Shown here: positions 1,248 through 9,436 of the stretch, in pieces | Position numbering within the stretch: position 1 is the first letter of the stretch | How the letters are laid out: each line of letters begins with the position of its first letter | Source of the DNA: Halomarina salina | Lineage (GTDB): Archaea > Halobacteriota > Halobacteria > Halobacteriales > Haloarculaceae | Direction: 5' to 3' | Length of the DNA stretch: 64,000 nt | Assembly: GCF_023074835.1 (NCBI RefSeq) | Contig: NZ_JALLGW010000001.1 | Coordinates: 1,860,001 to 1,924,000, forward strand | Program-made: the position numbers and the translations under genes | The notes under the pieces: generated by a model | What the model saw: the letters and a program-made list of their open reading frames with translations, nothing else | Databases searched by the model: none | What the model was told of the DNA's origin: nothing

Positions 1248-1367
1248 CCGCCTACTTCTCGACTCTTTCACCCCATACCCGCAGGGCGACTCCAGACGTT
1301 GCGATTGGCACGTTCGATGCCCGAGCGTAATCGGGGACAATCAGCCACGGTACGGATTGCTGGTAAT

Positions 1368-1392
1368 GATAGACTGAGAGCGTGAGTGTATC
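1368..1392 (+). repeat. array repeat R0, right half only
   Basis: 25 nt: arm GATAGACT, a 9-nt centre GAGAGCGTG, then inverted arm AGTGTATC. The left part of the repeat (the CGCGGCACGCG segment) is absent, so this copy marks the left edge of the array. Confidence 0.85.
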
Positions 1393-1492
1393 AATGTAAT
1401 TTCGAAATGGTGACTCTCTACTAGTAGTGACGAGGCTGCACCTGAAGGCCGAATGGGGATACTCCTTCTACTCGTCATCGAAAACCTACACA

Positions 1493-2155
1493 ATGAGCAT
1501 CGTATCGACGATACAGGAGTTCATCACGAACCCCATAGTGATGGGAGCGTGGGTCGTGCTCGTGGTCGCCTCGCTGGGCACGCTCGTCTGGGACCTCCGG
1601 AGGAACAACGAGGAACTGGGCAGTCTCATGAAGTACGTCTGGGGGTTCACCGTGCTCTATTCGGGACCCATCGGCCTCGGGGTGTACTGGTACTCCGGAC
1701 GAACCCAGATATCACACGATTCACTCTGGCGACGAGGCTTCCGGTCGGTCTGCCACTGCTACTCCGGGTGTGGTGCGGGTGAGATTACCGGCGTCGTCAT
1801 AGCTGTCGGTTTACTGGCGATGGGGAACCTCTGGGTTGCCGCCGTCACGTTCTCACTGGCGTACGTCTTCGGCTACGCCATGACGATGGGGCCGTTGATG
1901 CAGGAGGGGATGGAGTTCCGCGAAGCGTTCGTCGACGCCTTCTACTCCGAGACCGCCAGCATCGCGGTCATGGAAATCGTTGCTATCAGTACTGACATCT
2001 GGCTCGCCGGTGAGGCGACGATGGGTGAACCACTGTTCTGGGCGGCGCTGGTCGTCTCGTTGTCTGTGGGTCTCATCGCCGCCTACCCGGTGAACCTCTT
2101 GCTCATCAGTCGCGGCGTCAAAGAAGGGATGATGAACCCCGCCGAGATGAGCTAA
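1493..2155 (+). CDS. DUF4396 domain-containing membrane protein
   Basis: A 220-residue membrane protein of the DUF4396 family, function unknown. Helices are visible at about residues 13-34, 47-65, 98-118, 119-140 and 170-210. The family's conserved segments are present: GVYWYSGRT, the Cys/His-rich HCYSGCGAGE, and GYAMTMGPLMQEG. DUF4396 genes often sit near copper or redox genes, and here the next gene is a DUF326 copper-binding type protein, consistent with a metal-related role (inference). The ATG at 1493 matches the usual family N-terminus; an in-frame GTG at 1427 would add 22 unsupported residues. First gene of cassette 1. Confidence 0.85.
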   Translation: MSIVSTIQEFITNPIVMGAWVVLVVASLGTLVWDLRRNNEELGSLMKYVWGFTVLYSGPIGLGVYWYSGRTQISHDSLWRRGFRSVCHCYSGCGAGEITGVVIAVGLLAMGNLWVAAVTFSLAYVFGYAMTMGPLMQEGMEFREAFVDAFYSETASIAVMEIVAISTDIWLAGEATMGEPLFWAALVVSLSVGLIAAYPVNLLLISRGVKEGMMNPAEMS

Positions 2156-2182
2156 TCGCCAACCAGGACACGTGTTAGGTCC

Positions 2183-2535
2183 TCAGGCGGACGTCATCTC
2201 GCGGCAGCTCTCGGCACACTCGCGGACGACCTCACCACAGACCTGACAGTGGTCGTGCTGTTCGCACTCCTCGGCGCACGCTTCACAGGCCTCCGCGCAC
2301 AGTTCGGCGAGGTGCTCGCTGTAGTCGGAGTCTCGCGCCATGAACCGCGCGTGGAGTGTGGTGGCTCTGCAACGTCCCGACATAGCCGGAGACACTCGGC
2401 CATCTCCTCGCCGTGGCCAGCACACTGGTCCGCACACCACTCACAGACCTCGGCGGCTTCGAGGCAGTTCTCGATGCACTCGCGCTCGTGATCGCTCAGG
2501 TGGTCGATCTCGGAGACGGTTTCTGACAGAGACAT
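2183..2535 (-). pseudogene. DUF326 four-helix-bundle copper-binding protein, frameshifted
   Basis: Small Cys-rich cytosolic protein of the DUF326/Csp type that binds Cu(I) inside a four-helix bundle. Reading from the ATG at 2535, the first 56 codons give CIENCLEAAEVCEWCADQC and CLRLCRDVA. The rest (TLHARFMARD, CAEACEACAEEC, HDHCQVCGEVVRECAESC) lies in another frame down to the TGA at 2183. The frame changes between 2360 and 2367, where 8 nt occupy the space of three codons, so one base has been lost. All expected Cys are present across the two frames, so the gene was intact recently. A sequencing error is possible. It is convergent with the DUF4396 gene in the same cassette. Confidence 0.8.
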
Positions 2536-2601
2536 TGCGTGTCAGTCCACAGCGCCACTCGACACGGTGGTTCGGCCCTCGGCTGCAGGGGATGGGAAGG
2601 T

Positions 2602-2651
2602 GACATACTCGCGGCACGTATCGAATGCGAGACGCAGAGCGTGAGTATATC
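2602..2651 (+). repeat. array repeat R1, internally shortened
   Basis: 50 nt. The left segment (ACTCGCGGCACG) and the right segment (GCAGAGCGTGAGTATATC) are both present, but about 12 nt of the middle are missing compared with the 62-nt copies. The right arm reads GAGTATATC. Confidence 0.85.
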
Positions 2652-2673
2652 GCCCTCGACATAGAGTCACCCA

Positions 2674-2681
2674 AGATATTT
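2674..2681 (+). promoter_or_regulatory. TATA-like box of cassette 2
   Basis: AGATATTT lies 26-33 nt before the ATG at 2707. It begins 23 nt past repeat R1, so the cassette carries its own promoter. Confidence 0.5.
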
Positions 2682-2706
2682 GTCTTCCACTCTCATCGAC
2701 AAGAAT

Positions 2707-3072
2707 ATGGGCACGTCGAAACTCCGAACGGTCCTCCTGCCGCTCGGTTTGTTCGTTCTCTCGGCAGCAGCGTACTGGTCCGTCCTGCTGGGTGTCGTTC
2801 CGTTCGGCCTCGATGCACCACTCATCTTCGCGGTTATCGCAGGAGTGACTGCACTCGGCGCTGGGAAGATTGGCGCGCGGACACCGGCCCTTACAGCAGG
2901 AGTGGCAGCACTTGAATTTACCCTCGCCGCCGCAAGTGTCGGTGGGATTCTCACTGTCGGTGACTCTGCAGTCTTCGTCGGGGCAGCACTCGCAACGCTC
3001 GGTGTACTGAGTTACGCAATCAGTATGGTCCACCACATCGGAACGCGCGTCAACAGTGTGCGTCCGGCGTAA
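2707..3072 (+). CDS. small four-helix membrane protein, unknown function
   Basis: A 121-residue protein I do not recognise. Nearly all of it is hydrophobic, with helices at about residues 8-28, 32-50, 60-78 and 83-105, and a short basic tail ending in RVNSVRPA. The ATG at 2707 is preferred because a TATA-like box lies 26-33 nt upstream; a TTG at 2680 would overlap that box. It is the only gene of cassette 2, and its stop is 29 nt before repeat R2. No catalytic motif is visible; a small integral membrane role is all that can be said. Confidence 0.7.
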   Translation: MGTSKLRTVLLPLGLFVLSAAAYWSVLLGVVPFGLDAPLIFAVIAGVTALGAGKIGARTPALTAGVAALEFTLAAASVGGILTVGDSAVFVGAALATLGVLSYAISMVHHIGTRVNSVRPA

Positions 3073-3101
3073 TCTGCGCAGACTCACATACTACTGGAGC
3101 G

Positions 3102-3163
3102 GTAGACTCGCGGCACGCGTCGCTCACTTGGCCCAATCGATACACGCAGAGCGTGGGTGTATC
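3102..3163 (+). repeat. array repeat R2
   Basis: 62 nt full-length copy. The left segment reads ACTCGCGGCACGCGTCGC, the middle arm GATACAC and the right arm GTGTATC. The middle and right arms pair perfectly. The last bases also form the TGA stop codon of the gene in cassette 3. Confidence 0.9.
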
Positions 3164-3770
3164 ATTCGGCCCCGGTGGTCGTCGCGGTGGATGTGACGTG
3201 GAACGTCTCATTGTAGGTCTCTCCGGTGAGGGCCTCATCGTAGTGGGTGACGTGAACCGTCTCGGGACACTCAGCGACAACCTCGACGGTGGCTCTGTAG
3301 AGAACGGGGTTGATTTCGGTCGTACACCCTTCTGGCCCCTCCTCGAACGTATCACGGATTGTCAGCCGAAGCGTGTTCGACGTCGCGTCGTACCGTACGG
3401 CATCAAGGATTGTCGTACGGCATGACCGTGAATTACTGTACATCCAGCCGTCGACAATCACCCGATTCGACCCACACTGGAAGCGGACCGTCGCCCCGTG
3501 GTGGACCTCATCCACCGACGTGAATATCGGCCCGGCATAGTCGGTGGACTCCTCGTCCGTTTGGTAGAGAGGGACGTCCAAGAACTGCTGGAATCGACTA
3601 TCAGCGATTCCGTCCGGCGTCTCAGAGGTCGAGGTGGGTGATGGAGTGGCGGTGGTCGTGGAGGCAGTGGTCGACTCGTTCGAAGAGGACGTACTCCGGT
3701 TACTCGCAACACACCCCGCGAGTGTTGTGAGGAGGCTCCCTGTCACCCCGAGATACCGACGGCGGTTCAT
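3162..3770 (-). CDS. Tat-type lipoprotein, unknown function
   Basis: A 202-residue predicted secreted lipoprotein. The N-terminus MNRRRYLGVTG has twin arginines, followed by a hydrophobic segment and a lipobox TLAGC, so it is probably exported by the Tat path and lipid-anchored at the Cys near residue 20. A Ser/Thr-rich linker (about residues 22-50) leads to a beta-rich domain with four Cys, suggesting two disulfides. The start at 3770 is chosen because an upstream in-frame ATG lacks any signal and a CTATTAG box lies 23-29 nt upstream. The stop codon TGA lies across the edge of repeat R2. Sole gene of cassette 3. Confidence 0.75.
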   Translation of the reverse strand: MNRRRYLGVTGSLLTTLAGCVASNRSTSSSNESTTASTTTATPSPTSTSETPDGIADSRFQQFLDVPLYQTDEESTDYAGPIFTSVDEVHHGATVRFQCGSNRVIVDGWMYSNSRSCRTTILDAVRYDATSNTLRLTIRDTFEEGPEGCTTEINPVLYRATVEVVAECPETVHVTHYDEALTGETYNETFHVTSTATTTGAE

Positions 3771-3792
3771 GCTTCTCTGTTGATGACTTTGC

Positions 3793-3799
3793 ACTAATA
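3793..3799 (-). promoter_or_regulatory. TATA-like box of cassette 3
   Basis: CTATTAG on the minus strand lies 23-29 nt before the start at 3770. Very similar boxes precede the genes of cassettes 9 and 10. Confidence 0.45.
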
Positions 3800-3826
3800 G
3801 GGTTCCTGTGCGTCAAACTGGTCGTT

Positions 3827-3890
3827 GATACACTCGCGGCACGCGTCGAGAGCCATCGCCCGTTTGAGAGACTCAGAGCGTGGGTCTATC
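3827..3890 (+). repeat. array repeat R3
   Basis: 64 nt. The left part is GATACACTCGCGGCACGCG and the right part is CAGAGCGTGGGTCTATC. The central 20 nt diverge from the other copies (GAGAGCCATCGCCCGTTTGA). The middle arm GAGACTC no longer pairs well with the right arm. Confidence 0.9.
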
Positions 3891-3947
3891 GTTCTTCTCT
3901 TCTCGTTATCAGAGGGCCACAATCGGTGTGTGCCGATACCGTGGGCT

Positions 3948-3955
3948 CAATAAAC
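3948..3955 (+). promoter_or_regulatory. TATA-like box of cassette 4
   Basis: CAATAAAC lies 22-29 nt before the GTG at 3977, which supports that codon as the start of the TRIC-family gene. Confidence 0.45.
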
Positions 3956-3976
3956 TCGGTTCCATATGTCGACGTA

Positions 3977-4651
3977 GTGATTCAGGACCTCACCGGGGTG
4001 TTGCCCGTTGACCCGTTCACTGTGATGAACGCAGTCGGTCTCGTCGCGTTTGCTCTGGTCGGGGCGACTAAGGCAATCCGTGAGGACTTCGATGTCTTCG
4101 GAATCGTCGTCGTCGCGCTCGCCACAGCGTTCGCCGGGGGGACGATGCGAGACCTTCTCGTGAATCGCGTGCCGCTGGCCCTCCAGTCAGTGGGCGAAAT
4201 CGGGTTCGGAGCACTCGGTGTGGGGGTCGCACTCGGAGTTAGTATGGTACTCGGGTCTCCAGAGGACCATCCGTTCACACTCGTCGCTGATGCGGTGGGA
4301 CTCGCTGCGTTCGCTACGGCCGGCGCGATTGTGGCAACGGGCAGTGGCGTCTCGGCCTTCGGTGTCGTTGCGATTGCGACGATTAACGCGGTCGGGGGTG
4401 GCGCGGTCGCCGATATTCTACTGGACCGGCCGCCGTTCATCCTCTTCGAGGACTTCTACGCGAGTTGTGCCGTTCTGGGTGGGAGTGCCTATTGGATAGT
4501 GACAGCTGGTATGGGGGCAGAACGTATCGCCGTCGCAGTCTGTGCTGTCGTAACCGTTGGGACACGTCTGGTCGCAGTCAACTACGGCTGGAGACTTCCG
4601 ACGGCACAGATGCTCGGGCTGTCTACTGGTGAGGTCAACGAAAACCGATAG
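3977..4651 (+). CDS. TRIC-type (UPF0126) cation channel family protein
   Basis: A 224-residue integral membrane protein of the trimeric intracellular cation channel family (UPF0126/YadS). These proteins form homotrimers with one K+/Na+-conducting pore per subunit. Two three-helix repeats are visible, each with a kinked Gly-rich motif: AFAGGTMRDLLVNRVP in the first and VGGGAVADILLDRPPF in the second. The second copy has Ala-Asp in place of Arg-Asp. The ATG at 4025 would cut into helix 1, so a start upstream is needed. The GTG at 3977 fits the TATA-like box; a GTG at 3926 is possible. Sole gene of cassette 4. Confidence 0.85.
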   Translation: MIQDLTGVLPVDPFTVMNAVGLVAFALVGATKAIREDFDVFGIVVVALATAFAGGTMRDLLVNRVPLALQSVGEIGFGALGVGVALGVSMVLGSPEDHPFTLVADAVGLAAFATAGAIVATGSGVSAFGVVAIATINAVGGGAVADILLDRPPFILFEDFYASCAVLGGSAYWIVTAGMGAERIAVAVCAVVTVGTRLVAVNYGWRLPTAQMLGLSTGEVNENR

Positions 4652-4685
4652 TGCGAGACATGAATGGTCACAGTCCGTGGTGAGC

Positions 4686-4710
4686 GATACACTGAGAGCG
4701 TGAGTGTATC
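4686..4710 (+). repeat. array repeat R4, right half only
   Basis: 25 nt with perfect arms GATACACT and AGTGTATC around GAGAGCGTG. The left segment found in most copies is missing, as in R0. Confidence 0.9.
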
Positions 4711-4727
4711 ATCGGCACGTCAGTCGC

Positions 4728-5219
4728 TTACTCTCCCTCGGGGGTGCTTGTGTCTGCAGAACAGTATCGAGGGTCGTAGGCGAACTCCTCACAGCGGTCA
4801 CGAACCCGGAGCCGGAGCCCGCCAGACTCGTCGGACTGGCCCTCGTGTACGACGACCGCGACAACGCACTCTGGCACGGTATCGTAACGGTCGAGCACGT
4901 CGAACGTCTGCCAAGACTCCCCATCGACGCGGGCGGAGACAGTATATGTACCGGGAACCGCTTCCCAATCACAATCGACAATCCGGCGAGGTAGGATGCC
5001 GTCTTCGGCTGCTTCGACCTCGTGCGTCGATTCGTGGACAATCATTTCGTCGCGCTCAATGCGCAGCACGTAGGTGTGCCCGGATGTCTCATCAGAGTTA
5101 ATTACGCCGAACCGACGAAGCGTCGTCATCGGCTCACCGGAGACGATTCCGTCGTGACAGCCTGCAACACCTGCCATCCCGACGGTTCCGAGTGAGGCGA
5201 GGAGGGTACGACGGTTCAT
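4728..5219 (-). CDS. Tat-type lipoprotein, unknown function
   Basis: A 163-residue predicted lipoprotein. The N-terminus MNRRTLLASLG has twin arginines, then a short hydrophobic stretch and lipobox VAGC, so the mature protein begins at a lipidated Cys near residue 21. The rest looks like a small beta-sandwich with two Cys pairs (DCDW, PECV, DRCEE, YCSAD). The pattern resembles haloarchaeal extracellular proteins of unknown role, and no enzyme motif is seen. The ATG at 5219 gives the signal sequence at once; upstream codons read through the repeat region and look non-coding. The stop is 18 nt after repeat R4. Sole gene of cassette 5. Confidence 0.75.
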   Translation of the reverse strand: MNRRTLLASLGTVGMAGVAGCHDGIVSGEPMTTLRRFGVINSDETSGHTYVLRIERDEMIVHESTHEVEAAEDGILPRRIVDCDWEAVPGTYTVSARVDGESWQTFDVLDRYDTVPECVVAVVVHEGQSDESGGLRLRVRDRCEEFAYDPRYCSADTSTPEGE

Positions 5220-5296
5220 ATCTCGGTAGCGGGTCACGTCGGTAAGTCCTTTCTGTCTACAGGCCTCCTTGACGTGAGTCCTCTGGCAACTGGCTC

Positions 5297-5323
5297 TCGA
5301 TTGACAGAGAGCGTGGGTGTATC
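5297..5323 (+). repeat. array repeat R5, degenerate
   Basis: Only the right part is clear (AGAGAGCGTGGGTGTATC). The middle arm is replaced by CGATTGAC, and the sequence further left only weakly recalls the CGCGGCACG segment. Confidence 0.75.
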
Positions 5324-5331
5324 GAACGGCC

Positions 5332-5655
5332 TCAGTGGAGGACTCGAATCGCTTGGATTCCTCTGAGAGTCGCAACGACACCCAGCACACCAAGCAGGAT
5401 TGCGTAGATAGTGTCTGCGTTTCTGGTATAGTACACGCCAGCGATGAGCAACGAGAACGCGCCGATGACGGGCAACAGATAGTAGATGTAGCGGCGGCGG
5501 CCCGCGATACCACATCCACCAGCGAGAGCAGCGAGGCCGAAGAAGACCGTGATGAGCGAGGGACCAAGAAGGACCGTCACCAGTATAGCGCCCCCGATTC
5601 CAACGAGGAGGAGCCCCCACTCACCAACAAGAGCGCGAATCTCTCTCGTGTCCAT
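5332..5655 (-). CDS. small membrane protein, unknown function
   Basis: A 107-residue protein I do not recognise. A short charged N-terminus (MDTREIRALVGEWG) leads into helices at about residues 15-42, 52-70 and 78-98, separated by a basic loop GRRRYIYY. The ATG at 5655 is chosen because codons further upstream only translate repeat R6, and a GTTATTA box lies 27-33 nt upstream (5682-5688). The stop is 8 nt after the end of repeat R5. Sole gene of cassette 6. No functional motif is seen. Confidence 0.65.
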   Translation of the reverse strand: MDTREIRALVGEWGLLLVGIGGAILVTVLLGPSLITVFFGLAALAGGCGIAGRRRYIYYLLPVIGAFSLLIAGVYYTRNADTIYAILLGVLGVVATLRGIQAIRVLH

Positions 5656-5681
5656 TTGTCGACCAATTCCACCACCGCTCG

Positions 5682-5688
5682 TAATAAC
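5682..5688 (-). promoter_or_regulatory. TATA-like box of cassette 6
   Basis: GTTATTA on the minus strand, 27-33 nt before the start at 5655 and only 7 nt inside the cassette from repeat R6. Confidence 0.4.
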
Positions 5689-5694
5689 GTTGCT

Positions 5695-5757
5695 GACAGA
5701 CTCGCGGCACACGTCGCTCACTCGGTCCGTTCGATAGACTGAGAGCGTGGGTCTATC
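5695..5757 (+). repeat. array repeat R6
   Basis: 63 nt full-length copy. Left segment ACTCGCGGCACACGTCGC; middle arm GATAGAC; right arm GTCTATC. Both arms differ from R2 and R4 at the same paired position, so pairing is kept. Confidence 0.9.
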
Positions 5758-5880
5758 AGTTGAGGCCGTAGTGGTTGCCAATCAGAGATAGCTCGAAGTG
5801 ACCCTCAGACAGTACTCTTTTGATGAGTACATACGTCGACACGGAGTATGCTACCACGGTGGAGTTCACCTACTTCGGGG

Positions 5881-6378
5881 ATGACTTCACCGTCTGCAGT
5901 CGTTGTCATCCTCGTTGTCCTCACGGGATGTATCGGAGTTCCTCTCGCCGGTGATGCCGAACAGGGAACTTCTGTCACTCTCGTGTCCAACAGTTCCGTA
6001 GCGGAACCGTACACACTCGAAGTGTTCGTCGTTGACCTCCCCGCGAACGTGAGTGTGAACTACAGTGACGAACGAGCGGCCGACACGGAGATCGACGAAG
6101 GAGTTAGCCTCGTCGATTCTGGCGAGTACTACTATACCGACGTCACTCCAGCCCCCGAGGTAACCCGCCATCACGGGAACGTGACCGTTCCGTCGGGAGC
6201 GTCTGCCACAACCACTGTTACAGGCCTTCACCAACGAGGTGCCGTAATTGTGGCCGCCTACGATGAGCGAGGACGAATCACTTCCTACGTAGTCGCGAAC
6301 TGTGACGACCTCGCCCTCAGTTATCTGCAAATACGCCTCGAATCCGATGGCGCGAGTATCACACACGCCTGTAGCTAA
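5881..6378 (+). CDS. secreted lipoprotein, unknown function
   Basis: A 165-residue predicted lipoprotein. The N-terminus MTSPSAVVVILVVLTGCIG is a Sec-type signal ending in lipobox LTGC, with the acceptor Cys at about residue 16. The mature part is beta-rich, acidic and has several Asn-X-Ser/Thr sites (NSS, NVS, NYS, NVT), suggesting possible N-glycosylation on the cell surface. Two late Cys (NCDD and HACS) may pair. The ATG at 5881 is chosen because it opens directly on the signal. The stop is 28 nt before repeat R7. Sole gene of cassette 7, with no known domain. Confidence 0.7.
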   Translation: MTSPSAVVVILVVLTGCIGVPLAGDAEQGTSVTLVSNSSVAEPYTLEVFVVDLPANVSVNYSDERAADTEIDEGVSLVDSGEYYYTDVTPAPEVTRHHGNVTVPSGASATTTVTGLHQRGAVIVAAYDERGRITSYVVANCDDLALSYLQIRLESDGASITHACS

Positions 6379-6406
6379 ATCGACCGCACTCTCCCCAAAC
6401 TGCGTC

Positions 6407-6469
6407 GTTACACACGCGGCACGCGTCGCTCACTCGTCCCTATCGATAGATGCAGAGCATGGGTCTATC
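6407..6469 (+). repeat. array repeat R7
   Basis: 63 nt full-length copy. Left segment ACACGCGGCACGCGTCGC; middle arm GATAGA; right arm TCTATC. The arms again pair although their bases differ from R2 and R4. The core reads GCAGAGCATGGG. Confidence 0.9.
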
Positions 6470-6538
6470 AGCGGGATACAAGGGCGGTGTCTTCGACCGC
6501 ACTGGTACGGACGATTGTTGCCTGACCATTGGCCACAC

Positions 6539-7054
6539 CTATAGTTCGAGTATCGGGGCTTCATCGAGGTCCAAATCGCCTCGGAGTAGTAATCCGACAT
6601 CTTCGGAGAGATTCGAGCCACCCACTAGTTTCGTGAACACCATTACCAGAACCGAGAGGACGAGACCGCCAATGACGATGACATTCGGAACCATCGCGAA
6701 CATGCGCCGTACGCTAGCAACGAGGGAAGAACGAAGGGCAGCGACATCTCGGGTGAGCGGCTCAACCACTGAAATTCCGAAAAACGATTCATCAATCTTA
6801 GCGTTCAAAAACACGAGTATGAACCCCCCGATGCCTGCGATGCCGAGTACTCCCACTACCAGTGTTAACCCTCCAAAGATGTGGGTGTCCCGCTCGTGGT
6901 AATCCTTCGGATGGAGGATGTCGGCGATGAGTCCGGTCGTCAGGACTATTCCCGGTATCGCGAGAACGCCGAACATTCCGAGGGTAGCCGGGTTAGACCC
7001 AACTATGCCCGCGAGAACCCCATACGAACCGATCACCGTGAGTGGGAGGGTCAT
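6539..7054 (-). CDS. four-helix membrane protein, unknown function
   Basis: A 171-residue membrane protein I do not recognise. Helices lie at about residues 3-20, 23-45, 57-80 and 118-140, the last after an amphipathic segment (TRDVAALRSSLVASVRRM). The C-terminus is acidic (LDLDEAPILEL). The start at 7054 is preferred because a TATA-like box GATATACT (7079-7086) lies 25-32 nt upstream. An ATG at 7117 would add 21 residues (MFSVGERVLVRVYP...) and cannot be excluded. The stop is 69 nt from repeat R7, the largest gap of this kind in the array. Sole gene of cassette 8. Confidence 0.65.
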   Translation of the reverse strand: MTLPLTVIGSYGVLAGIVGSNPATLGMFGVLAIPGIVLTTGLIADILHPKDYHERDTHIFGGLTLVVGVLGIAGIGGFILVFLNAKIDESFFGISVVEPLTRDVAALRSSLVASVRRMFAMVPNVIVIGGLVLSVLVMVFTKLVGGSNLSEDVGLLLRGDLDLDEAPILEL

Positions 7055-7078
7055 CCCCAACCCACGGAGATGAACGGG

Positions 7079-7086
7079 ATATACTC
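7079..7086 (-). promoter_or_regulatory. TATA-like box of cassette 8
   Basis: AGTATATC on the minus strand lies 25-32 nt before the ATG at 7054. Confidence 0.45.
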
Positions 7087-7202
7087 TCACGAGGACTCGT
7101 TCACCAACTGAGAACATAGGTATGCCCCAAGCTACTGCACAGCCACCAGCGGTAGCCTCCCTGCTAACTGCCGACGAACAACCCCTACGTTCGTTGAATG
7201 CC

Positions 7203-7265
7203 GATACACACGCGGCACGCATCGTTCACTCGGCCCGTTCGAGACACTGAGAGCGTGAGTTTCAC
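7203..7265 (+). repeat. array repeat R8
   Basis: 63 nt copy. Left part GATACACACGCGGCACGCA; middle arm GAGACACT; right end GAGTTTCAC, which no longer pairs. The last bases encode the stop codon of the cassette 9 gene. Confidence 0.85.
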
Positions 7266-7696
7266 AGCTCACTGTCCGGGGCGGTCGAGTCACCTGCCCC
7301 CGACTGATTGAGACCGGTGAAGTTACTCACTCCGATGACGAACAGCAGCACTACGAACCCCCAAAGTATCAGTGCCAGCACCCGTGCTCCGCCGGAATAG
7401 TCCCCAGAGAACGGGCGAAGCATCGGAACGGGCCACAAGACCCCCTCTATCAGCATACATACGCTGAACACAGTCAGGGCCAGCCCTTGCACTCGGCCCT
7501 CGAAGGATCCAGAATTGGTTTCGCCCAGACCGGCCATATTTCGTGCCAGAAGGGCGATACAGATGGTGAGTGCCATGCTGGTCGGGAGCCACCAGTGACG
7601 CGGGTGAGCACCCACAGCGAACAGGAGTGCTGCGACAGCGATGAAGATGCCAGCCAGTGCCAACGGGTGCTGTTGTGACCAGCTCTGGTTTCCCAT
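7262..7696 (-). CDS. four-helix membrane protein, paralogue of the next cassette's gene
   Basis: A 144-residue membrane protein of unknown function. Helices lie at about residues 11-30, 36-52, 70-90 and 100-122; conserved features are the HWWLPTS turn and a GRVQGLALTVFS helix start. It is clearly related to the cassette 10 protein (shared WWL, GRxxGL and LxxVWxG-like spacing) and to the fragment at 7803-7975, which ends almost identically (GDSTAPDSEL versus ANSTSPDGEL). The ATG at 7696 has a CTATTAG box 22-29 nt upstream. The stop codon lies inside repeat R8. Sole gene of cassette 9. Confidence 0.7.
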   Translation of the reverse strand: MGNQSWSQQHPLALAGIFIAVAALLFAVGAHPRHWWLPTSMALTICIALLARNMAGLGETNSGSFEGRVQGLALTVFSVCMLIEGVLWPVPMLRPFSGDYSGGARVLALILWGFVVLLFVIGVSNFTGLNQSGAGDSTAPDSEL

Positions 7697-7717
7697 ACTA
7701 TCCAGAACACTATACGT

Positions 7718-7725
7718 GCTAATAG
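7718..7725 (-). promoter_or_regulatory. TATA-like box of cassette 9
   Basis: CTATTAGC on the minus strand, 22-29 nt before the ATG at 7696. It is nearly the same box as in cassettes 3 and 10. Confidence 0.45.
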
Positions 7726-7745
7726 TTCATGACTACGAGTCAAAC

Positions 7746-7806
7746 GATACACACGCGGCACGCGTCGCTCACTCGTCCGTTCGATACACTGAGAGCGTGG
7801 TCTTAC
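7746..7806 (+). repeat. array repeat R9
   Basis: 61 nt copy. Left part GATACACACGCGGCACGCG; middle arm GATACACT; right end GTGGTCTTAC with two bases lost. The final bases provide the stop codon of the remnant in cassette 10. Confidence 0.85.
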
Positions 7807-7975
7807 AGCTCACCGTCTGGGCTAGTGGAGTTAGCTGCATCAGGTTGGAGGAGACCAGTCACGTGACCAACCCCGATGATTAACAGTACCACGACGAAAT
7901 CCCAGAGTATCACCGCCAGCGTTCGTGCACCGCCGGACACACTGGCTGAGAGTGGGCTACGCATCGGGTTGATAG
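7803..7975 (-). pseudogene. C-terminal remnant of a cassette 9-type membrane protein
   Basis: About 56 codons matching the end of the cassette 9 protein: SGGARTLAVILWDFVVV here against SGGARVLALILWGFVVL there, and the same NST/PDxEL tail. There is no usable start codon and the first half of the gene is missing. Its 5' end runs straight into the 3' end of the intact relative at 7957-8355, in another frame. The junction lies in a short shared sequence (AACCCGATGCG), so it looks like the scar of a deletion between two related genes. The stop codon is supplied by repeat R9. Confidence 0.7.
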
Positions 7976-8355
7976 ATGCCGAACAGTTCTCCAAGACCAC
8001 TGACGAGCATCACGAGCAGGACGCCCCACCACACCAATACGAATACCGTTAGGCCCCACACGTGGCCCTCACCGAATGGGTTGAACATCGGGAAGCCAAA
8101 CAGCATCCCTTCGGCAACCATGAGTACACTGAGGACACTGACACTGAGGCCACGTGCTCGACCCTCAATCGGGCCAGAGGTCGAACGGTCCATGTCGAAC
8201 ACTTCTCGTGCAGTAACCCCGACCAGCAACGTGGTTCCCAATGACGCTGACAGCCACCAAATCGCCGGAGGAATGCCGAGAACGAAGAGAGCGGCTCCAA
8301 CGGCCAAGGAAAGCGTAGTGAACGCCAGCATATACTTCGAGGTCGTGCTTACCAC
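7957..8355 (-). CDS. four-helix membrane protein, cassette 10 paralogue
   Basis: A 132-residue membrane protein related over its whole length to the cassette 9 product. Helices lie at about residues 8-28, 32-50, 68-88 and 97-118, with IWWLSAS and EGRARGLSVSVLS matching the relative. It ends early at FGIYQPDA followed by TAG, whereas relatives continue for about 10 residues, because the gene is fused there to another copy's remnant. The GTG at 8355 is preferred since a TATA-like box (8378-8386) lies 23-31 nt upstream; a GTG at 8370 is also in frame. The function is unknown. Confidence 0.65.
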   Translation of the reverse strand: MVSTTSKYMLAFTTLSLAVGAALFVLGIPPAIWWLSASLGTTLLVGVTAREVFDMDRSTSGPIEGRARGLSVSVLSVLMVAEGMLFGFPMFNPFGEGHVWGLTVFVLVWWGVLLVMLVSGLGELFGIYQPDA

Positions 8356-8377
8356 ATTGCCACCAAACACCCGTTTC

Positions 8378-8386
8378 GCTAATAAC
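8378..8386 (-). promoter_or_regulatory. TATA-like box of cassette 10
   Basis: GTTATTAGC on the minus strand, 23-31 nt before the GTG at 8355. Confidence 0.45.
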
Positions 8387-8404
8387 TCGTTGTGGCGACC
8401 AACC

Positions 8405-8429
8405 GATACACTCGCGGCACAAGTCTATC
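8405..8429 (+). repeat. array repeat R10, shortened end copy
   Basis: 25 nt. The first 16 bases of the repeat (GATACACTCGCGGCAC) are joined directly to the last nine (AAGTCTATC). The inner segment is gone. It marks the right edge of the array. Confidence 0.85.
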
Positions 8430-8479
8430 AGCTGAGTCACCACAGACCGGCGTGAAATAAACCGGCCGTGTCTCTCGCG

Positions 8480-9436
8480 CTACCGTACCGTCGCGCCCTC
8501 GTTCCGGGCGCGGACGACCCGTACCTCGCCGTCCACTCCCGCCTCGTCGAGCGCACGCTCCCCCGCCTCGTGAGCGGCGTCGGCGTTCGCCCGGTCGGTG
8601 ACGCCGTAGACGGTCGGTCCCCACGACGACTGGCCGACGCCGGTCACCGAGGGCTCCTCGCCCAGCGCCGCCACCAGTTCGCCGACGGGCGGGCGGTAGA
8701 CGCCGCCCTGTTCGTCCGCGTACCACGCGCCGTTGAGGCGGCCGAACTCGCCCACGGCGCGGCCGAACCGCTCGCGCTCGCCCGTCACGACCGCCGGGAG
8801 CAGTCGGCGGACGAGCACCGCCGAGAGGTCGTCGGCGATGCTCGGGTCGGCGCGTTCGACCACCGCACGCATGCTGTCGTCCTCGTCGCTCCCGGACCGC
8901 CCTTCGCCGTCGGGCGTCACGAGCAGGAACCGCCAGTCGTCGGGGACGGGGTGGCGGGCGACGACCGGCGGGACGGACCACTCGCCGCGGGCGGGCGGCG
9001 TCGTGGTGAACCGCTCGGTGGGGTGACCGGCGTCGACGACGAGGCCGCCCGTCTCGAACGTCGCGACGCCGACGCCCGAACGCCCGCCGCGTCCCAGCGC
9101 GGGCGCACTCGCACGGACCCGGGGGGCGCGGTCGTACGCCCGCGCAATCGCTTCGAGCGTCGCCAGCGCGTGCTGGGTGCCGCTCCCGAGGCCGACGTGG
9201 TGCGGGAGGCCGTCGACGAGGCGAACGTTCGCACCGGGCAGGTCGAGCAGTTCGCAGACCGCGTGTGTCGTCTCGCGGAGCGCCGGGTCGGCGGCGACGC
9301 CGTCGGCGCGCGTCGCCTCCACCACGACGCGCGGTTCGTCGAGCGCGAGGCCCACGCCGCCGTAGAGTCGCTCGTACGCGAGCGAGAGGTTCGTGAACCC
9401 GACGTGGAGGCGTGCCCCCGTCTCGACCCGGACCAT
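8480..9436 (-). CDS. beta-ribofuranosylaminobenzene 5'-phosphate synthase-like GHMP protein
   Basis: A 318-residue GHMP-superfamily enzyme of the beta-RFAP synthase type (MptG in methanogens). That enzyme joins 4-hydroxybenzoate or 4-aminobenzoate to PRPP in methanopterin synthesis. The GHMP phosphate-binding motif GLGSGTQ is at residues 82-88, preceded by HHV. The N-terminus MVRVETGARLHVGFTNLS is typical of the family, and the C-terminal segment contains GVGQSSWGPTVYG, a conserved Gly/Ser-rich loop. Haloarchaea do not make methanopterin as methanogens do, so the true acceptor in this organism is open. The ATG at 9436 is the only sensible start. It stands alone between the array and the glycosyltransferases. 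Confidence 0.8.
   Translation of the reverse strand: MVRVETGARLHVGFTNLSLAYERLYGGVGLALDEPRVVVEATRADGVAADPALRETTHAVCELLDLPGANVRLVDGLPHHVGLGSGTQHALATLEAIARAYDRAPRVRASAPALGRGGRSGVGVATFETGGLVVDAGHPTERFTTTPPARGEWSVPPVVARHPVPDDWRFLLVTPDGEGRSGSDEDDSMRAVVERADPSIADDLSAVLVRRLLPAVVTGERERFGRAVGEFGRLNGAWYADEQGGVYRPPVGELVAALGEEPSVTGVGQSSWGPTVYGVTDRANADAAHEAGERALDEAGVDGEVRVVRARNEGATVR

Follow-up and report, generated by a model that had tools for sequence, protein, structure and literature searches.

The window, a 64,000-nucleotide stretch of a 4.46-Mb genome of the genus Halomarina (G000:C1:1860001-1924000), carries at positions 1368-8429 an array of 10 cassettes, with a GC content of 0.583 vs 0.708 and 0.695 on either side. 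The array lies between a gene at 612-1247 (RNase H-like by eye, with no Pfam match) and a GHMP-kinase-like gene at 8480-9436. Its left flank, an attI-left-like segment called B (1344-1367, plus strand), ends in ...CGGATTGCTGGTAAT adjoining the first repeat, R0; its motif (consensus GATTGCCGGTATT) recurs in other arrays and in the corresponding locus of H. oriensis (G002). The right flank, an attI-right-like segment called C (8430-8463, plus strand), reads AGCTGAGTCACCACAGACCGGCGTGAAATAAACC; the same motif occurs at other right edges, and its start is present in G002.

A full repeat consists of two different 25-bp near-palindromic sites standing side by side, RE and then LE, as found in scans of the window and of Halomarina loci; RE is the left half of most internal copies, which are laid out as RE, linker and LE. 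The left array edge, R0 (1368-1392, GATAGACTGAGAGCGTGAGTGTATC), is a lone LE with no RE upstream, in agreement with the original prediction that it is the right half of the repeat only. R10, the right array edge (8405-8429), had been read as the first 16 bases fused to the last nine, and this holds exactly (GATACACTCGCGGCAC + AAGTCTATC). It need not be a deleted repeat, being a lone but complete RE with an intact right arm. R4 (4686-4710) and R5 (5299-5323) were likewise rightly said to lack most of the left segment, and each consists of LE alone.

All repeats lie on the plus strand. Cassette 1 (1393-2601, plus) carries an ORF at 1499-2155 (DUF4396) and a minus-strand ORF at 2194-2535, and is followed by R1 (2602-2651), where RE (2602-2626) abuts LE (2627-2651). 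Cassette 2 (2652-3100, plus; ORF 2680-3072) precedes R2 (3101-3163; RE 3101-3125, LE 3139-3163), and cassette 3 (3164-3826, minus), whose minus-strand ORF at 3162-3794 has a lipobox-like start by eye, precedes R3 (3827-3890; RE 3827-3851, LE 3866-3890). Cassette 4 (3891-4685, plus; ORF 3926-4651, PF03458), which ends at R4, is also found in array L005 at 93.9% identity. Between R4 and R5 lies cassette 5 (4711-5298, minus) with a small ORF that is lipoprotein-like by eye, and between R5 and R6 (5695-5757; RE 5695-5719, LE 5733-5757) lies cassette 6 (5324-5694, minus) with a small ORF that is membrane-protein-like by eye. Cassette 7 (5758-6406, plus; ORF 5848-6378) leads to R7 (6407-6469; RE 6407-6431, LE 6445-6469), and cassette 8 (6470-7202, minus), with a minus-strand ORF at 6539-7222 whose true start is probably inside, leads to R8 (7203-7265; RE 7203-7227, LE 7241-7265). 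Cassette 9 (7266-7745, minus; ORF 7262-7696, minus) is followed by R9 (7746-7807), which holds RE at 7746-7770 and an imperfect LE at ~7783, one base short and missed by the LE model. Cassette 10 (7808-8404, minus; ORF 7957-8370, minus) ends at R10. No Pfam match was obtained for the ORFs of cassettes 2, 3, 7, 8, 9 and 10. Cassettes 9 and 10 are alike, with 72% identity over 138 bp (window 7259-7396 vs 7800-7937), and are perhaps a duplicated, diverged cassette.

The grammar of the sites can be read directly from the sequence. The consensus of RE is GATACAC-TCGCGGCAC-RR-GTCTATC, with the variants G-A/T-TA-C/G-AC-TCGCGGCAC-RR-GTCTA-T/A-C, and that of LE is GATAGAC-NN-AGAGCGTG-R-GTCTATC, with the variants G-A/T-TAGAC-NN-AGAGCGTG-R-GTCTA-T/A-C. 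The arms, GATAGAC/GTTAGAC and their complement, are common to LE and RE, whereas the 8-bp centres differ, being AGAGCGTG in LE and CGCGGCAC in RE. In the fetched Halomarina loci there are 197 LE and 148 RE sites at a score >=20, and the LE model, which was built from the same loci, gives 201 matches vs 0 in the reversed control. Since the LE and RE models select sites partly by centre, the conservation of the centres was re-tested by the arms alone. At no more than 1 mismatch in the 14 arm bases, this search returned 226 sites and none in the reversed control, and 224 of the 226 have one of the two centres with at most 1 of the 8 bases mismatched (LE 141, RE 83), while one has a looser LE centre and one has neither. 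With perfect arms there were 138 sites (85 LE centre, 52 RE centre, 1 looser), and with up to 2 mismatches 315 sites, 14 of them with neither centre, vs 6 in the control.

Same-strand neighbours less than 3 kb apart in the fetched Halomarina loci follow the order LE-cassette-RE 125 times and RE-junction-LE 68 times. The 68 junctions measure, from start to start, 25 bp (11), 33 bp (1), 36-39 bp (29) or 80-82 bp (27). The long junction carries both flank motifs, C and then B, in the form RE-AGCTGARTCAC...GTGAAATNAACC...GATTGCCGGTATT-LE (20 examples). Exceptions to the grammar are 44 LE-LE steps with no detectable RE, 7 RE-LE steps of more than 110 bp and 8 RE-RE steps. In many internal repeats of the window genome the right arm of RE has degenerated to GTCGCTC, which may leave LE as the one working site.

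Under a fixed mismatch rule, the array (1300-8500) contains 8 LE and 8 RE; outside it the window has no LE and one RE, the window when reversed likewise gives no LE and one RE, and 20 two-base-block shuffles of the array give 0 and 2 in total. An 18-bp right-end motif at up to 2 mismatches occurs 75 times genome-wide vs once in the reversed control. Chance does not explain the repeats. A heuristic chose an ORF in 83 of the 87 cassette-like intervals that follow an LE in the window genome, 42 forward and 41 reverse. As cassette ORFs stand in both orientations, they may well have their own promoters. By eye, some cassette products are lipoprotein-like and some are membrane proteins; HTH_10/BAT and CDC48_N proteins also occur.

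The pattern GATASACNNAGAGCGTGNGTSTATC, searched at up to 2 mismatches in 59 genomes, is present in 5, every one of them Halomarina: the window genome (72), H. rubra (G007, 45), G002 (26), G001 (15) and G006 (8). It was not found in G003 (73% complete), G004 and G005, nor in any of the 51 genomes from other genera. G004 has a weak relic, one LE-like site at 3 mismatches. A degenerate RE-LE pair (L039:188-237, scores 26 and 12) was seen as a relic in G003, whose genome is otherwise motif-free.

At the same locus of H. oriensis, the left flank aligns at 83% identity up to window position 1392, the end of R0 (L033 7062), where the homology stops. The interior consists of one unrelated cassette of ~1.2 kb with a 336-aa ORF and has no similarity to the window interior. 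On the right side, BLAST homology restarts at window position 8470, 40 bp beyond R10; RE and the start of the C flank are recognisable in both genomes, with gaps, and the RE of the H. oriensis locus is weak (score 24). Because this genome keeps the left edge and the right RE around an unrelated cassette, the alignment indicates that the edges are fixed and the content between them differs in the only occupied relative that is informative. The original prediction would have been refuted by breakpoints that do not coincide with R0 and R10; the left break is exact at R0, the right one fits R10 within ~40 bp, and the refuting outcome was not seen.

The empty site fared differently. It had been expected to contain one half repeat, but in the array-less G001, G003 and G007 the ~320, 95 and 415 bp between the flanking genes show no LE or RE by the site models, and the flank motifs B and C were also not found there by eye. 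The array-less relatives lack the whole platform. G004, G005 and G006 align on the right side alone and are uninformative for this question. Of the idea that units join at a fixed site, one part is supported, as the edges are fixed and unlike the internal copies, with varying content between them in H. oriensis; the expected empty site with a half repeat is not supported. An exact pattern search for an empty platform elsewhere gave 0 matches. LE followed by flank C (up to 3 mismatches) gave 5 matches and no convincing empty platform, four of them being occupied LE sites known already and the fifth (G002:C31) looking by eye like a variant of RE; the search for flank B and then RE (up to 3 mismatches) gave 2 matches, which are RE sites of inverted platforms (L087, L080), neither convincing.

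A typical array starts with B-LE and finishes with RE-C. The fetched loci contain 85 site chains, of which 40 were assigned a type at each end: B...C (28), C'...B' (11) and B...B' (1); the remaining 45 are cut by the fetched stretch, are RE-first or LE-last, or have an unrecognised flank. B is thus on one side and C on the other in 39 of 40 typed arrays (Fisher p = 5e-9). The 11 arrays that are inverted relative to B and C would not be yielded by strict LE x LE and RE x RE exchange.

Where exchange takes place can be judged from blocks of identity in different Halomarina loci. A stretch of 5487 bp, 99.9% identical between H. rubra L041 and H. oriensis L047, runs into an LE of which positions 1-17 are equal and 18 differs; beyond this break the two loci carry unrelated cassettes. 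L041 and L049 (1324 bp, 99.2%) likewise switch at 17|18 of an LE. The int block (94.5% identical) has two RE sites, and in each of them the sequences agree from position 9 to 25 and part at position 8; arm positions 1-7, which are mostly consensus, are equal at one RE and have one base different at the other. The cassette of L001 and L017 (99.1% over 325 bp) is equal through RE position 16 and differs at 17, and that of L007 and L012 (93%) differs at LE position 9, with a rare A at 19 common to both. Since these blocks (93-99.9% identity) stop inside LE or RE, they fit an exchange that would fall within the conserved centres, LE 10-17 and RE 9-16. L001 and L017 also have TT in common at the variable LE positions 8-9, which speaks mildly against a crossover at 10-17. 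The 5.5 kb at 99.9% between H. rubra and H. oriensis (L041:2458-7944, L047:6519-12000) adjoins a platform, and such near-identity suggests a recent transfer of platform-carrying DNA.

These breakpoints bear on two other explanations. In the first, B-LE-gene-RE-C units would be tandem non-autonomous transposons that insert serially through an IS605-type or other transposase, as PATEs do. The palindromic ends and the single copies dispersed genome-wide would agree with this, and an array edge would then be nothing more than the end of a unit, but the exchanged unit stops inside LE and RE while B and C stay put, and PATEs are described, in the sections of the source drawn on here, as IS605-related elements without inverted repeats at their termini and of insufficient length for a transposase (PMC3119063). 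We consider such units very unlikely, and IS605- or PATE-like movement of whole units was set aside on the ground that exchange stops inside the two sites.

The second explanation is passive shuffling, by ordinary homologous recombination between repeats with no dedicated recombinase. Homologous recombination is common in haloarchaea, and the repeats are numerous; however, the breakpoints recur within a few bases where the contexts share little besides the site, the two centres are conserved despite variable arms, and a recombinase, Int, sits at several hubs. Passive shuffling is accordingly rated as highly improbable.

Int is a tyrosine recombinase of ~271-285 aa encoded between convergent RE ends, in L005, L041 (broken), L047 and L049 (broken). 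The window genome has ten PF00589 matches, nine of them above the cut-off, and one (C1:1976005) is inside a platform, its gene being flanked by two RE sites facing toward it (L005). At E<=1e-3, homologs of Int were found in the window genome (1), G002 (7 pieces), G007 (3) and G004 (1, weaker), and none in G001, G003, G005 and G006. The presence of Int parallels the number of sites, 72, 45 and 26 with it and 15 and 8 without. The sites of G001 and G006, genomes with no detectable homolog, are either relics or served by another recombinase.

Tyrosine recombinases are marked by a conserved R, K, HxxR, W/H and Y. In 14 Int sequences, R91, K158, H217, R220, W243 and Y252 are invariant, and so is a C...CxxC motif. 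Together with the PF00589 match and a fold match to XerA and Tn1549 Int, these residues assign the predicted protein to the tyrosine recombinase superfamily. By sequence profile, the nearest solved chains are XerC-like, XerD and XerA (2e-6 to 3e-5), with IntI4 at E=0.19; in the fold comparison the best matches are Tn1549 Int and XerA (E about 1e-4), and IntI4 ranks 18 at 0.011. The model used for this, built from 11 sequences, has a mean pLDDT of 67.2 and a pTM of 0.66, with residues 1-51 and most of 234-271 below 50, and supports the fold only. In NCBIfam, Xer-type models alone match, all far below the cut-off (best XerA_Arch, 27/220 bits), in a library that may lack an IntI model. The PHROG matches of Int, 216 and 1, are both integrases.

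Other genes and arrangements occur at these positions. A gene for an Orc1/Cdc6-like AAA+ ATPase can replace int between convergent RE ends (L045:6154-7152, L068:437-1435, L064 ~2734-3731); PF22703 (Cdc6_lid) is found in the hub genes of L045 and L068, and similar pieces in L064. The hub of L003, between convergent RE ends, is just 202 bp. A serine recombinase gene (PF00239; L005:16090-16761) stops 22 bp short of the LE at the left edge of the L005 array. This closeness could be taken to mean that the serine recombinase is the enzyme, but it was noticed, in passing, at one array, whereas Int recurs at several hubs; as the enzyme of the system it is extremely unlikely, and it was rejected in favour of Int.

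Among 392 genomes sampled from the order, 80 have Int relatives (E<=1e-20). A generic search around Int in other genera, run first, found 65 candidate sites vs 51 in the control and was set aside. In 29 loci around Int relatives, GCTGAAT-armed sites give 77 LE and 49 RE matches vs 1 and 0 in the reversed control, the motif having been derived from those same loci and palindromes being counted on both strands. Of the 14 close pairs in these loci, 11 have LE exactly 66 bp after RE. A second set of 51 Int-relative loci, from partly the same genomes, gave 55 GCTGAAT-type sites vs 0 in the control and one 66-bp pair; 20 loci have such a site and 31 do not. Several GCTGAAT-type sites are near one end of int or the other. 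In other haloarchaeal families, LE/RE sites with GCTGAAT arms form cassette-like arrays near Int (L136, L140, L145, L147). In Halobium salinum (G399), where Int is 75% identical, CCTAGAG-armed sites occur 5 times (up to 3 mismatches) vs 0.

The array probably represents an integron-like platform of exchangeable gene cassettes, in which the edge sites have different crossover sequences, so that cassettes would be swapped between LE and RE. Each cassette would lie between LE on its left and RE on its right, and an internal repeat would arise where the RE of a cassette meets the LE of the following one. R0 and R10 would be the platform's own boundary sites, flank B plus LE and RE plus flank C. 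Int, presumed to act on LE and RE as a dedicated enzyme, would exchange strands within the centres, each site pairing with its own kind (LE x LE, RE x RE). A double exchange, possibly through a circular or cointegrate intermediate, would swap the content of the platform and thus amount to natural recombinase-mediated cassette exchange, and an LE x LE exchange would add or remove one cassette plus an RE-linker-LE junction.

A true integron or CALIN, with IntI working on single-stranded folded attC and attI at one edge, would likewise account for arrays of cassettes separated by repeats, a fixed edge and a tyrosine recombinase nearby. The integron core consensus is GTTRRRY/RYYYAAC. The arms of G002 and G007, often GTTAGAC/GTCTAAC, fit this core, and the distance from the RE right arm to the LE left arm is ~70 bp. 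Yet Int is closer to Xer-type recombinases and Tn1549 Int than to IntI4 by both profile and fold, the breakpoints lie in the centres and not in the GTT core, and cassette ORFs are oriented about 42:41 by the heuristic. Of 8 strands folded, from 6 sites, 7 are ordinary (z -1.8 to +0.5) and one is at -3.9. Covariation between the RE-left and LE-right arms was not found; pooled associations of RE-right with LE-left (p=1e-4) and of LE-left with LE-right (p=0.008) may reflect relatedness. An IntI-type integrase, a GTT crossover and an attI at one edge beside the integrase were all lacking, and a true integron was rejected as a most improbable reading. Both array edges carry a site and a flank, unlike the one-edge attI, and Int lies between two convergent RE ends in 4 Halomarina loci. 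In the parallel with attI and attC drawn by the original prediction, the logic is borne out and the parts are different, as each edge has a site of its own kind and the integrase is nearer to the Xer type than to IntI.

Haloarchaea exchange genes heavily. It is conceivable, if somewhat less than probable, that they have evolved an order-wide natural cassette exchange independently of integrons, with a dedicated integrase, two mutually incompatible core sites, and arms diverging together with the integrase; with two fixed incompatible sites, such a platform would be refillable and never emptied. If the platform reading holds, part of the small accessory gene content of these genomes would be an organised, refillable store (87 cassette-like intervals in the window genome), and the system would be a second solution to the problem that integrons solve. 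It would also offer natural examples of heterospecific recombination sites and possible archaeal cassette-exchange tools. No integron-like platform in haloarchaea was found in the open-licence PMC literature; as these papers alone were covered, this absence is weak evidence of novelty.

Recombinase-mediated cassette exchange in the laboratory uses heterospecific sites, with the same arms and incompatible spacers, and content is swapped between them. The proposed platform resembles it in both arms and spacers, and differs from that engineered system in being natural and repeated in arrays. The PATEs of Haloquadratum are likewise haloarchaeal, short and with palindromes near their ends, and differ in their IS605 relation and size and in that no fixed platform is described for them in the sections of PMC3119063 used here.

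In the gene modules of Acinetobacter plasmids that are bounded by pdif sites of XerC/XerD, replacement affects single modules and takes place between sites whose spacers match, according to the part of PMC13141974 considered here. These dif modules are alike in their bounding tyrosine-recombinase core sites, short-spacer exchange and alternating module types (PMC13141974). They differ in their variable 6-bp spacers, whereas two fixed 8-bp centres, a dedicated integrase, palindromic arms and a composite RE-linker-LE junction are found here; the present sites, 25 bp long with inverted 7-bp arms and 8-bp centres, are not dif-type XerC/XerD sites with a 6-bp spacer. Integrons, including archaeal integrons, share small unrelated genes with sites between them, fixed platforms, a tyrosine recombinase and array-only clusters elsewhere in the genome, as far as the main text of PMC9668308 was drawn on, in which the strings "haloarch" and "halobact" were not found. 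The present system differs in an Int nearer to XerA and Tn1549 Int, breakpoints in 8-bp centres, two different sites per cassette, sites at both array edges and cassette ORFs in both orientations. It would work like the integron and the dif modules and, by the features tested, belongs to neither.
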